From assembly GCF_028752835.1 (NCBI RefSeq), contig NZ_CP087952.1, positions 1,407,041-1,471,040 on the forward strand: a stretch of DNA of 64,000 nucleotides. The letters are read 5' to 3'. Source of the stretch: Desulfosarcina sp. BuS5 (GTDB taxonomy: Bacteria; Desulfobacterota; Desulfobacteria; Desulfobacterales; BuS5). The position numbers and the translations under genes are program-made. The notes under the pieces are model-generated. The model made no database searches. It was not told where the DNA came from and was given only the letters and a program-made list of their open reading frames with translations. This document shows positions 13,267 to 60,388 of the stretch, piece by piece. Within the stretch, counting starts at the first letter, position 1; each line of letters opens with the position of its first letter.

Positions 13267-15462
13267 GTGGGTGCTCGGGAAACGGTTTGTTTCCTTCATC
13301 TCTGCAGGGCTTGCTCTGGCATTGATGTTAAGATAGTCCCACCTGACTAAAGACTAACCAGCAGGTCAGTAGCGAAGTCCACAGGTAAACCCGGTAACGG
13401 GAGTCTGGAGCTGGACGGAGCAAGATTGCAGGCTCTGTATTGAGCCCCGAAAAATGTATGGTTGTGGTCATTGTGATAATCCTGCTTGCAGGAAAAAGCC
13501 GACGCTTTGGAGACAGCGGAAGGCAGCAGTCCTGAATATGCTAAGGCAAGTATTCAGGACACCACCGGGGTCTTAGACCAGGGCATGTACTCAAAGGGGT
13601 AGCTCGGGAACTTGGGAGACCCGGATGTTTCCTTGGGTAAAAAGAACGGTAACAGGAAATCCAGCGCAAGCGAAATCCCGGCGTTGCATAGGAATGTCCC
13701 GCCTTGCAACGAGTCTGCCATTGGCAGAAACACAAACATTAAAAGATGGGCGATACAAGGTATCAGGGGAGGATAGCGAAGAGCGAACGAACCTGAGATA
13801 AACATTCGGAAGTCTTAGCAGATCATAGTACCGATGATTAAGAATTGAACTATCTTGATCGGAAAGGTGGGGAAGTGATGCCCAAGCGACCCACTGCAGG
13901 GAAGGTGAAGCAGGGTATAACGTTTTTTTGGCAGGAATTATGGGAGATACACAGATGTCACAAACCATATCAACAAAAAGCCGAGAAATTGCAAGAACGG
14001 TCGCTTGCAATTCCAGACCGATAGAATGGGGACAACCACCGGTGTTAACAGGTGGGTCATCCCTTATCAAAATCGAGCTGCTTGCTCAAAGTAATCCTGA
14101 ACTGGTATTTACATCAGTAGTCCATCGGATAGACTTTGATTTACTGAAACAATCCTTTCGTAAAATTCGGAAAAGCAAATCTGCAGGAGTGGACAAGGTT
14201 ACGGCAAAGGAGTATGCCGAAAATCTTGATCAAAACCTCTATAATCTGTATGAACGACTGCGGAGAGGACAGTACGTTGCGTCTCCTGTAAAGCGTATCT
14301 GGATAGACAAGGAAGGAGGGAAAAAGCGTCCAATTGGCATACCTGTACTTGAGGATAAAATTGTCCAGAAAGCAGCAGCAGCCATATTGAATGTCATATT
14401 TGACAGGAATTTTTACAATTTTTCCCATGCATTCAGAAAAGGTCGGAGCCAACACATGGCAATCAAAGATTTACGTGAGCAATGCTTGAAGCAGAATATC
14501 AGCTGGATAGTAAGCGCAGATATTACAGGACTATTTGACAATATTAATCACGAGTTACTTAAAGACATGATACGTCGGAGAGTAAGTGACGGCGGAATGA
14601 TTCGCCTGATAGGGAAGTGGTTGAATGCAGGCGTAATGGAGGAAGGCAACCTGACGTACTCTGAAACGGGCACTCCACAGGGAGGAGTAATTTCCCCTGT
14701 GCTCAGTAATATCTTTCTTCATTATGTTTTAGATGACTGGTACGTGAAAGAAGTGATCCCCCGGATGAAAGGGAGATGCTCCATCATACGCTGGGCGGAT
14801 GATTTCATCCTCGGGTTCGAGTATGAAAAAGACGCATTGCGTGTCATGGATGTATTACCCAGGCGGTTCGAACAGTTCGAGCTGTCACTTCACCCGGAAA
14901 AGACAAAACTGATTCGATTTTCCAAACGCATTAGCGGAAAGGGAAACGGGACGTTTGATTTTTTAGGGTTTACATTTTACTGGTCAAAATCATTAAAAGG
15001 GTACATGGTAATAAAGAAAAAGACGGCAAGAAAGCGTTCAAGCCGTTTTATGAAGAGAATATGGATATGGTGCAAGGATAACCGTCATAAGCCAATGGCC
15101 GAGCAGTATGAGATTCTTTGCAGTAAACTGCGAGGTTTTTACCAGTACTTTGGAGTAATAAGTAACTACAAAGTGCTGGAAGTTGTGTTTGAATATACTG
15201 AGAAAGCATGGCGTCGATGGTTAAGCCGAAGAAGTCACAAGGGCGAAGTAATGTTCGAGGACTTGCGCACAACATACCCACTGCCATTACCCAGAATAGT
15301 CCATAATATTTGATGCCGTAAGGGCTGCAAAGTTATACGCCAAACGGGGTGTCGCCTGTTTGGTTGATAATCCGGTAAAAAGGATTTGAACCGAGGAACC
15401 GTATGAGGGAAATCTTCACGTACGGGTCTGTAGGGGGGGCGTCGGGTAACCGATGCTCCTAC
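13267..15462 (+). mobile_element. Group II intron (retroelement) with its reverse transcriptase
   Basis: The 5' end is placed at GTGGGTGC (13267), in keeping with the GUGYG-like start of group II introns. The region 13267-13950 is a GC-rich structured stretch with many short palindromes. The RT gene follows (13955-15313). Downstream, GAACCGTATGAGGGAAA and CACGTACGGGTCT (15393-15430) look like domain V, and the stem from TAGGGGGGGC to GCTCCTAC (15431-15462) like domain VI, with a terminal AC. It is about 2.2 kb. Boundaries are estimates. It is antisense to the surrounding minus-strand genes and splits a signal-peptide coding segment from caspase debris. Confidence 0.85.
13955..15313 (+). CDS. 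ltrA: Group II intron reverse transcriptase/maturase
   Basis: The protein has RT palm motifs in order: KSKSAGVDKVTAKEYAENL, RRGQYVASPVKRIWI...GKKRPIGIPVLEDKIVQKA, WIVSADITGLFDNINHELL, ETGTPQGGVISPVLSNIFLHYVLDD, then IIRWADDFILGF at the catalytic box, where Trp replaces the usual Tyr of YADD. FDFLGFTFYWSK and a C-terminal maturase (X) segment follow, with LRGFYQYFGVISNY. No HNH endonuclease domain is visible. The longest frame opens at TTG 13928, but ATG 13955 has GGGAG eight bases upstream and is preferred. It is intact and could support splicing and mobility. Confidence 0.9.
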   Translation: MSQTISTKSREIARTVACNSRPIEWGQPPVLTGGSSLIKIELLAQSNPELVFTSVVHRIDFDLLKQSFRKIRKSKSAGVDKVTAKEYAENLDQNLYNLYERLRRGQYVASPVKRIWIDKEGGKKRPIGIPVLEDKIVQKAAAAILNVIFDRNFYNFSHAFRKGRSQHMAIKDLREQCLKQNISWIVSADITGLFDNINHELLKDMIRRRVSDGGMIRLIGKWLNAGVMEEGNLTYSETGTPQGGVISPVLSNIFLHYVLDDWYVKEVIPRMKGRCSIIRWADDFILGFEYEKDALRVMDVLPRRFEQFELSLHPEKTKLIRFSKRISGKGNGTFDFLGFTFYWSKSLKGYMVIKKKTARKRSSRFMKRIWIWCKDNRHKPMAEQYEILCSKLRGFYQYFGVISNYKVLEVVFEYTEKAWRRWLSRRSHKGEVMFEDLRTTYPLPLPRIVHNI

Positions 15463-15551
15463 CTGGAAACTATGATTTCTGCGTTTGCGGTTGATGCAAA
15501 TCCGATCAAAAGACAAATTACACCAATAATGCTTAAAAGCCTGGTCCCCAT
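15463..15551 (-). pseudogene. Signal-peptide fragment of an exported protein, cut by the group II intron
   Basis: Starting at ATG 15551, the frame reads MGTRLLSIIGVICLLIGFA then STANAEIIV, a clear Sec signal peptide with an ANA cleavage site, preceded by a GGGA ribosome-binding site. It runs into the predicted intron edge. The intact gene would continue on the other side, where only a caspase C-terminus remains. It is the last gene on the strand of the 15566-16327 gene, 15 bases away. Confidence 0.55.
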
Positions 15552-57840: not shown

Positions 57841-59790
57841 CTATGGGGTCCTGGCAAGGCGAAAGCCCAGAAGGCTGAAGCGGCGGCCCGGCGAATAGTA
57901 GTTAATACTCGCTGACCGGCAGTAGCGGGCACTGCTGAACCATCCGCCGCTGCGACACACCCGGAAGGAGCCTTCAGTGCAAAGAGGATCAACAATACCA
58001 TCACGATATATTTTCCTCATTAATTGCCCTTTCCAATTAAAATTATCCTGACACCACTCCCATACATTGCCGTGCATGTCATACAGACCCCAGGCGTTGG
58101 GTTTTTTTTGTCCCACAGCATGCGTTTTCTTTCTTGAGTTACTTCCATACCAGGCATAATAACCAAGCCTGTTGTCGCTATCACCAAAGCAGAATCGGCC
58201 AATACTCCCCGCCCGACATGCATACTCCCATTCCGCCTCTGTTGGTAAACGGTATTTCCCCCCCCCTTCTTTCCGATTCAGATTCCTTATGAATTCTTGT
58301 GCATCATTCCAGGATACCTGCTCCACCGGACAGTCATCGCCACAGTTATTAAAGTAGGATGGATTATTACCCATCACCGCCTCCCACTGCCCCTGGGTCA
58401 CCTCCGTGGTTTGCATGTAAAATCCCTTTGCAAGCGTTACCTTATGTTGCTTTTCGTCAGACTCACGGCCGGATTCATCAGGTGGACTGCCCATTATAAA
58501 CGTGCCTGGCTTGATATATACAAACTTCATGCCGATGGCGTTTGTCATACCTCTATCCTGCTGAACAATTGCAACCGGTTTTAATCTTATGCTGATTTTT
58601 TCATCTCCACCGGCTTCAAGTCCTATCCATTTTTTTTCTGTTTCATACCCGTTTGATGACACCTCCACATGATATTTCCCGGGATCAAGCTCAATGCCCT
58701 GGTAAAATTCGGGGCTGATGTTCAATATCCTTATCTTTGCGTCAGACGGGCTTGTATCCACATAAAGACTGCTTTTAGGCGCTGATTCAGGTTCGAGATA
58801 TACGGTAAGTCTCAAGGTTTTCCCTGTTTTAATACGAACCGTTTTGGAGTATGGTTCATATCCATCCTTTTCCACCCTGATGCGATGCTCTCCGGGAGAA
58901 ATTTCAATATTATCCAGATTTGTTGTGCCCATCATTTCTCCGTCCACAAAGACCCTGGCTCCTGAAACATTGGCCTTTACGTAAAGGCCGGACTTCTTGC
59001 CGGCTGGTTCATCTACGATCAGACTTGAACCGGATGCAAAATAAAAATTTTCGTTTAAAGAGGTGGATTCCCAGGGTACTTGCTTTTTGCCTGATTCAGT
59101 CATTACCGTTGAACGAACCTGCTGAAACATCTCCAGAATCGTAATACCAGGTGAATCAATATGTTCCAGCAAAGCTGATGTGTAAAGGCCGTGTTTTCCC
59201 GCACCGTCCAAAGCTGTTTTGCCTGGTGAAGTGGCATAAGCAATGAGCGAGCCTGGGGGAGCGTTCATAGAGGCTAATCCGTTGCCATTGGAACCTCTGT
59301 TCCAACTACGTTCAAAAGGGTTGTCACGACAGGCATCCAGAATAACGATATTTGTCTTTGTGCCCGCGTTTTCCATCTTGGCCAGCACCCGGCCGACCTT
59401 TACGCAATCGTATTCAACGTCATTCTCGTTTTCCAGTTTTGCGTCAGCAGGTATCAGATAATTATTTCCCTTTACCTGGACACCATGCCCGGCATAGAAA
59501 AACAGGCCTACATCATACTGTTTCAGCTTTTTCCCAAATATGTCAATTGCCTTTTTTATATCTTTCTGAGTACAATTTTCATATTTGATAACTGTAAAGT
59601 TCAGATTTTCCAAGGCTTTTTTGATTGCCCTGGCGTCATTCACCGGGTTTTCAAGACTTGCGCCGGCCGGATACCTGGCATTTCCTATAACAAGAGCTAT
59701 ACGCCGATCATGTCCGGAAACAGAGATATCCGGCCGCACAAACCAGGCCAGCAAGAGTAACACCGCAAAAAAGATTATCTTTTGTTTCAT
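57841..59790 (-). CDS. Exported caspase-PEGA-FGE-sulfatase multidomain protein
   Basis: A 649-residue protein. The signal KIIFFAVLLLLAWFV opens it. The caspase (C14) domain has RRIALVIGNARYP, LFFYAGHGVQVKG (His ~102) and IVILDACRDNPFE (Cys ~154), so the dyad is intact. Two PEGA units follow (GARVFVDGEMMGTTNLDNIEISPGEHRIRV and SDAKIRILNISPEF...ELDPGKYHVEV), then an FGE-sulfatase/C-type-lectin-like domain (FVYIKPGTFIMGSPPDESGRESDE through SGGWFSSARYCRSASIN to LGFRLARTP). ATG 59790 is chosen, with AAGGA eight bases upstream. It is in an operon with an OmpA-like gene. Its last ~45 residues resemble a DGR variable region (see findings). Confidence 0.9.
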   Translation of the reverse strand: MKQKIIFFAVLLLLAWFVRPDISVSGHDRRIALVIGNARYPAGASLENPVNDARAIKKALENLNFTVIKYENCTQKDIKKAIDIFGKKLKQYDVGLFFYAGHGVQVKGNNYLIPADAKLENENDVEYDCVKVGRVLAKMENAGTKTNIVILDACRDNPFERSWNRGSNGNGLASMNAPPGSLIAYATSPGKTALDGAGKHGLYTSALLEHIDSPGITILEMFQQVRSTVMTESGKKQVPWESTSLNENFYFASGSSLIVDEPAGKKSGLYVKANVSGARVFVDGEMMGTTNLDNIEISPGEHRIRVEKDGYEPYSKTVRIKTGKTLRLTVYLEPESAPKSSLYVDTSPSDAKIRILNISPEFYQGIELDPGKYHVEVSSNGYETEKKWIGLEAGGDEKISIRLKPVAIVQQDRGMTNAIGMKFVYIKPGTFIMGSPPDESGRESDEKQHKVTLAKGFYMQTTEVTQGQWEAVMGNNPSYFNNCGDDCPVEQVSWNDAQEFIRNLNRKEGGGKYRLPTEAEWEYACRAGSIGRFCFGDSDNRLGYYAWYGSNSRKKTHAVGQKKPNAWGLYDMHGNVWEWCQDNFNWKGQLMRKIYRDGIVDPLCTEGSFRVCRSGGWFSSARYCRSASINYYSPGRRFSLLGFRLARTP

Positions 59791-59800
59791 GATGTTTTCC

Positions 59801-60388
59801 TTATTTTTCAAGCTGAATCTCAACCCGGCGGTTAACTTGTTTGCTTGCCGCTGAGTTGTTGGGCACCAGCGGTAAGGCTTCGCCGTAGCCCACGCTTCTA
59901 AGCCTGGATGCTTCGACTGGAAAATTTGCCAGGATATAATTTAGTACGGAGAGGGCTCGGTTTAAACTCAGTATCAGGTTATAGGCATCGCTGCCGTCCG
60001 AGTCTGTATGGCCTTTAATTATAATTGTTTTATCGCTTAACTTTTTATCTGTAATTGCTTTGGCAAGTTCATTCAGCAAGGTGAAAGAGGATCTTCGGAT
60101 AAGATAGGAGTTATAGTCAAATTCAATTTTCATGTTTACCCGCGGAGAGGTGTCATTTTTTGTAACAATAATGGTTTTTTCCACAATCTGGTGTTCATCT
60201 TTTTCCACGACTTTGATGTCACGGGATTTTATTTTTGAATTCGGGACAAATCCTCTTGTTTTGACCGCTGGACGGGTCAGCTTTTTTACGATTTCATCCG
60301 CCGTATCTTGAAACATATCTTCCTGGGCACGGAGCGCGGCAGCAGGAAAGATTGTCACCAAAAAAATCGTCAATAATAATGTGCGCAT
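59801..60388 (-). CDS. OmpA-family peptidoglycan-binding protein
   Basis: A 195-residue protein. MRTLLLTIFLVTIFPAAALRAQ is a signal peptide. The OmpA-C domain comprises MKIEFDYNSYLIRRSSFTLLNELAKAI, IIIKGHTDSDGSDAYNLILSLNRALSVLNYIL, RLRSVGYGEALPLVPN and NRRVEIQLE, with the conserved D and R that grip diaminopimelate. It lies 10 bases upstream of the caspase gene, so both are probably exported and anchored near the cell wall together. Confidence 0.9.
   Translation of the reverse strand: MRTLLLTIFLVTIFPAAALRAQEDMFQDTADEIVKKLTRPAVKTRGFVPNSKIKSRDIKVVEKDEHQIVEKTIIVTKNDTSPRVNMKIEFDYNSYLIRRSSFTLLNELAKAITDKKLSDKTIIIKGHTDSDGSDAYNLILSLNRALSVLNYILANFPVEASRLRSVGYGEALPLVPNNSAASKQVNRRVEIQLEK

Follow-up and report, generated by a model that had tools for sequence, protein, structure and literature searches.

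The 3′ end of a gene encoding a caspase-like protease in Desulfosarcina sp. BuS5 raises the question of whether its last codons were written by a diversity-generating retroelement (DGR) and, if so, where the machinery that wrote them lies. The gene is located in a 64,000-nt stretch of DNA, hereafter the window, which corresponds to C1:1407041-1471040 of a 4.18-Mb genome assembled in 2 contigs and 97% complete by marker genes. A reading of the window from the sequence alone had proposed that the C-terminus of the encoded protein is a DGR variable region (VR), and the gene, its coordinates and its codons were as that reading described them. The features are listed below, with codons numbered from the translation of 57841-58530, such that FGE codons 198-220 occupy 57939-57871 of the minus strand.

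57841 to 59823, minus strand: caspase (C14)–PEGA–FGE-sulfatase/C-type-lectin gene, 660-aa ORF
59041 to 59706, minus strand: caspase-like peptidase domain (Pfam C14, 3.8e-44, residues 40-261)
58786 to 58989, minus strand: PEGA domain (Pfam, 8.3e-23, residues 279-346)
57850 to 58524, minus strand: FGE-sulfatase/C-type-lectin fold domain (Pfam FGE, 4.3e-44, residues 434-658)
57871 to 57954, minus strand: predicted orphan DGR VR, codons 193-220, with NNY where relatives' templates have AAY
57841 to 57870, minus strand: constant 3′ end of the VR (CTGGGCTTTCGCCTTGCCAGGACCCCATAG)

The likely true start of the gene is the ATG at 59790, which by eye is followed by a signal-peptide-like stretch (MKQKIIFFAVLLLLAW), and the protein is likely exported. 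The caspase-like domain possesses both the His (GHG) and the Cys (DACRDNP) motifs, and a second PEGA-like module, also recognized by eye, apparently lies 3′ of the first. Among solved structures, the top match of the FGE domain was the DGR variable protein TvpA of Treponema denticola (2Y3C; E 5e-37). The same domain occurs in TaqVP of Thermus aquaticus (PMC6328139), and in proteins of this type, as in the window gene, the VR comprises the last ~40 codons and ends in ...GFRLA. Unlike TvpA and TaqVP, the window protein is fused to caspase and PEGA domains, and neither template nor reverse transcriptase (RT) was found in its own genome.

The last 40 codons of the gene are homologous to bona fide DGR VRs. 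Comparison of 126 homologous C-termini revealed ten hypervariable sites (198, 199, 203, 208, 210, 212, 216, 218, 219 and 220), with entropies of 3.35-3.78 bits and NNY codons in 84-96% of cases, while framework residues R193, G195, W197, P214, G222 and R224 were nearly constant. The proposed pattern of varied NNY codons within a constant framework was thus borne out, and the homologs differ from one another at the variable sites instead of sharing the same residues, as would be expected of orthologues had no diversification occurred. In the window gene, NNY is present at essentially all of the 10-12 codons at which DGR templates from the same order have AAC or AAT, compared to a gene background of 50% NNY. 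The sites facing template AAY are 198-200, 203, 208, 210, 212, 216 and 218-220, together with 211 in some templates; ATT (209) and GGC (215), which had also been listed as variable codons, are not among them. Moreover, the AAC/AAT codons that had been ascribed to related proteins are a property of the templates: in the proteins themselves, they account for only 4-17% at these sites. The window VR further contains two unusual framework changes, G194S and R209I, that could reflect decay or ordinary divergence.

To separate mutation from amino-acid selection, we counted fourfold-degenerate codons alone. At the ten hypervariable sites, 291 of 355 such codons ended in C or T, versus 52% in residues 1-184 of the same domains; when homologs of at least 55% identity were considered, the values were 78 of 86 at the variable sites versus 50% elsewhere in the domain. 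The rows in these counts are related and do not represent independent events. This excess of C/T at the third base is beyond what amino-acid selection alone explains. The window VR holds just two fourfold-degenerate codons, and the proof therefore rests on comparison within the family. The distribution of differences over codon positions was equally skewed. More specifically, in all pairs of five close homologs (the window gene, a paralog from its own genome and three others), differences at positions 1/2/3 numbered 67/66/8 in the VR and 466/394/906 in the domain body. For the window gene and its paralog, the corresponding values were 6/6/1 and 52/42/102 (Fisher p=0.0026). The excess at positions 1 and 2 inverts normal divergence and is the pattern left by adenine-targeted rewriting of AAY codons.

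These data bear on the possibility that the domain has no DGR history, such that lectin surface residues were under diversifying selection and Y, S, N, D and F simply happen to use NNY codons. The fold does tolerate variation at these positions and FGE domains unrelated to DGRs exist. Nevertheless, 82-91% of the fourfold-degenerate codons at the variable sites end in C or T versus 50-52% elsewhere, changes avoid third positions, and the variable sites coincide with AAY codons in the templates of relatives. We consider this explanation highly improbable, the synonymous third-base test largely contradicting it.

Complete DGRs in the same order provided a direct comparison. In one of these, L218 (G144:C263), a template and a DGR RT are accompanied by bAvd and several VRs, whereas neither RT nor template was found in the window genome. 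Two of the L218 targets are caspase–PEGA–FGE proteins, one of which is 53% identical to the window protein over the full length. The hypervariable sites are the same in L218 and the window gene: the L218 template has AAC at 198-200, 203, 208, 210, 212, 216 and 218-220, that is, at the ten hypervariable sites plus 200. The 3′ ends are also similar. The VR of the window gene shares GCCAGGACCCC at its 3′ end with the caspase–PEGA–FGE targets of L218, whereas the L218 template differs (GCCAGCACACGG). Such a difference between target and template is as expected for an initiation-of-mutagenic-homing site, and the constant 3′ end may represent one. No DNA hairpin of at least 6 bp was detected downstream of the VR in either the window gene or the L218 targets, so that its absence from the former carries no weight.

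In L218, template and VRs mismatched at 18-20 of 39 adenines versus 9 of 101 other bases. Similar biases were observed in L221 (13-17 of 34 versus 3 of 106) and L227 (18 of 32 versus 3-4 of 108), which are bona fide DGRs beside homologous targets. Compared with 12 template-type sequences from the same order, the window VR differed at 63-75% of template adenines, whereas for the other bases the proportion was 27-44% (p 0.015 to 0.00014 for the adenine bias), and it kept the C/T third base at 10/10 to 12/12 AAY sites, with 11/12 in three of the comparisons. Overall, the assignment of the region as a DGR-type VR, as judged from sequence, is strongly supported. With respect to adenine mutagenesis by a DGR, the origin proposed in the sequence-only reading is upheld by the codon-position bias, the adenine-biased mismatch and a homolog of the same architecture in a complete DGR. 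By contrast, a working DGR belonging to the genome itself is not, as whole-genome searches yielded neither a template nor a DGR RT.

Within the window, template and DGR RT are absent, as had been stated; the RT at 13928-15310 belongs to a group II intron (13333-15468, plus strand; RF02005 and RF00029 matches). We then considered the whole genome. A DNA search for a template returned only the gene itself and the paralog at C1:2492282-2493034, a caspase–PEGA–FGE gene with an orphan VR (DNA match 74%). The paralog was rejected as a template: its VR codons are mutated too, making it another target. Patterns allowing A at every base of either VR, with three mismatches, matched only the VRs themselves and a poly-A tract, and thus gave no template for the paralog either. 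The tract (C1:2347043-2347120, plus strand) contains ~60 nearly pure A and is odd for a bacterial chromosome. Finally, a generic template pattern had no match in this genome. Among 146 genomes from the order, 18 contained matches to this pattern and none to its reversed control; many of the matches adjoin RTs with the DGR motif (I/V)GNLxSQ, and a few may be VRs instead of templates.

No DGR RT occurred among the 51 RVT_1 matches in the genome, all of which fit group II introns. Inspection of 22 of these loci and of the window copy showed a single group II intron RT, complete or fragmentary, with one exception, which was a different group II RT; the remaining matches, of equal or nearly equal score, were taken as the same RT. 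As a positive control, BPP-1 Brt scored 61.6 bits with the RVT_1 model used. As a query against the genome, Brt retrieved nothing better than group II intron RTs. A profile of 11 same-order DGR RTs gave a best score of 117 bits, on group II introns, while in relatives, full-length DGR RTs of the type that the profile represents scored about 450-540 bits (14 of 56 candidates scored). The near-copy template beside a DGR RT that the sequence-only reading anticipated was therefore not found, which counts against present activity but not against a DGR origin.

Several candidates were discarded. The five matches to PF05635 (23S rRNA intervening-sequence-type protein), a model other than the bAvd model PF22296, were rejected as Avd, none being beside a DGR RT; one of these genes, at C1:61699-62005, is split into two frames. 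The phrog_1423 matches are group II introns, as is the RT 0.9 kb from another FGE gene (C1:4035163), a copy of the common intron; the C-terminus of that FGE gene differs. The surrounding region (C1:4034000-4044000) contains two related FGE proteins interspersed with group II intron and transposase-like genes, and their C-termini do not have the VR pattern. Genome-wide, the group II intron occupies about 50 places, with fragments in addition to some 35-40 near-identical copies of the full-length RT, a load that is unusually high for a 4.2-Mb bacterial genome.

The paralog was informative in its own right. Both it and the window gene have NNY at 10/10 sites, and they have the same VR third base at nine of the 10 sites, despite differing at 102 of 174 third positions in the body. 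This suggests that the bodies diverged first and that the two VRs were then written from related templates, and DGR loss may therefore be recent. The VRs are nevertheless identical at only 67 of 84 bases, the framework bases being among those that differ. This last observation argues against a working DGR that still rewrites both VRs in trans from a plasmid, phage or missing contig, as one current template would not leave such differences inside the copied stretch. Three kinds of search yielded no template, and no DGR RT was found, in the 2-contig, 97% complete genome. Although the fingerprint is unblurred in both copies, the 3′ end of the window gene resembles those of the L218 targets, and remote targets have been documented in cyanobacteria (PMC7517822), we regard rewriting in trans as quite unlikely.

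A phylogenetic tree of the family mixed DGR-adjacent genes with others. Nesting of the window gene within the former was unsupported, resolution around it being poor. The two paralogs were placed apart in this poorly resolved tree, and their VRs may therefore stem from different DGRs. The mixed topology, as well as the presence of the family in many members of the order, both those that have a DGR and those that lack one, would suit a VR that was acquired ready-made from a DGR-bearing relative, by horizontal transfer or gene conversion, and never diversified in this lineage. However, another genome of the same genus (G002) contains homologs with the fingerprint and pieces of the caspase–PEGA–FGE architecture, which suits vertical presence. 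A ready-made VR thus appears unlikely, though a short converted tract is hard to distinguish.

Among the 31 homologs that we examined, 25 come from genomes in which no DGR RT reached the cut-off, and even so the fingerprint was retained: NNY was present at 226/250 sites in these genomes versus 55/60 in DGR genomes. As many of the genomes are drafts, the 25 of 31 is a lead and not a result. Two homologs have an in-frame stop inside the VR, at codon 206 in G002:C189 and codon 204 in G039:C40, which may reflect decay after DGR loss or sequencing or assembly error.

Together, the codon fingerprint, the homology to true DGR targets and the failure to detect a template or DGR RT in the assembly make it quite probable that the C-terminus of the gene is a DGR VR that lost its diversifying machinery. 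By descent, both the gene and the paralog are DGR targets, in a genome without the RT and template of a complete DGR. Since no DGR machinery was found in a nearly complete genome, the gene is probably a frozen DGR leftover. According to the mechanism we propose, an ancestral error-prone DGR RT would have copied a template in which about 11 codons were AAC or AAT, its adenines being scrambled and the copies written into the 3′ ends of the gene and the paralog. The RT and template would since have been lost from the genome, presumably recently relative to the divergence of the homologs. With these gone, both genes would now carry fixed variants of a C-type lectin ligand-binding face, fused to an exported caspase-like protease that the lectin domain may control by sensing ligand. 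That the machinery was lost, and does not reside on an unassembled element, is an inference, and an assembly that is 97% complete leaves some room for a DGR on a plasmid or prophage that went missing.

VRs stranded in this manner have published precedents, and the present case fits that kind, although our literature search on orphan or degenerate DGR VRs returned nothing relevant. In cyanobacteria, the DGR targets described include orthocaspase–lectin proteins and remote targets, as well as a remnant with no RT in its vicinity (PMC7517822). These variable proteins (e.g., Nostoc all3226) resemble the window gene in combining an orthocaspase with a hypervariable lectin domain and in the occurrence of remnant targets away from the RT. 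In those cases, however, a DGR remains elsewhere in the genome, whereas none was found here. In Thiohalocapsa PB-PSB1, DGR loci lost the RT or template through mobile elements, leaving targets behind as in the window genome, and such proteins were proposed to be antigen sensors (PMC10907252). Transposons or MITE-like arrays mark the loss in Thiohalocapsa; no scar was identified here.

The present case adds a genome that is nearly complete, contains two targets and yielded no DGR, together with a template-free test for such targets. As DGR surveys usually take the RT as their starting point, targets that persist after its loss escape them; the third-base test recognizes DGR targets without a template or RT. 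If the share of orphans holds in closed genomes, the fate of hypermutated sensors after diversification stops becomes directly askable. We tentatively suggest that stranded VRs may be a common end state in this order: a DGR is gained, useful binding faces are found, the machinery is lost and the frozen variants are kept, some perhaps still being rewritten in trans by passing mobile DGRs. If true, a stranded VR would be comparable, in microbes, to a somatically generated receptor that has become fixed in the germ line.
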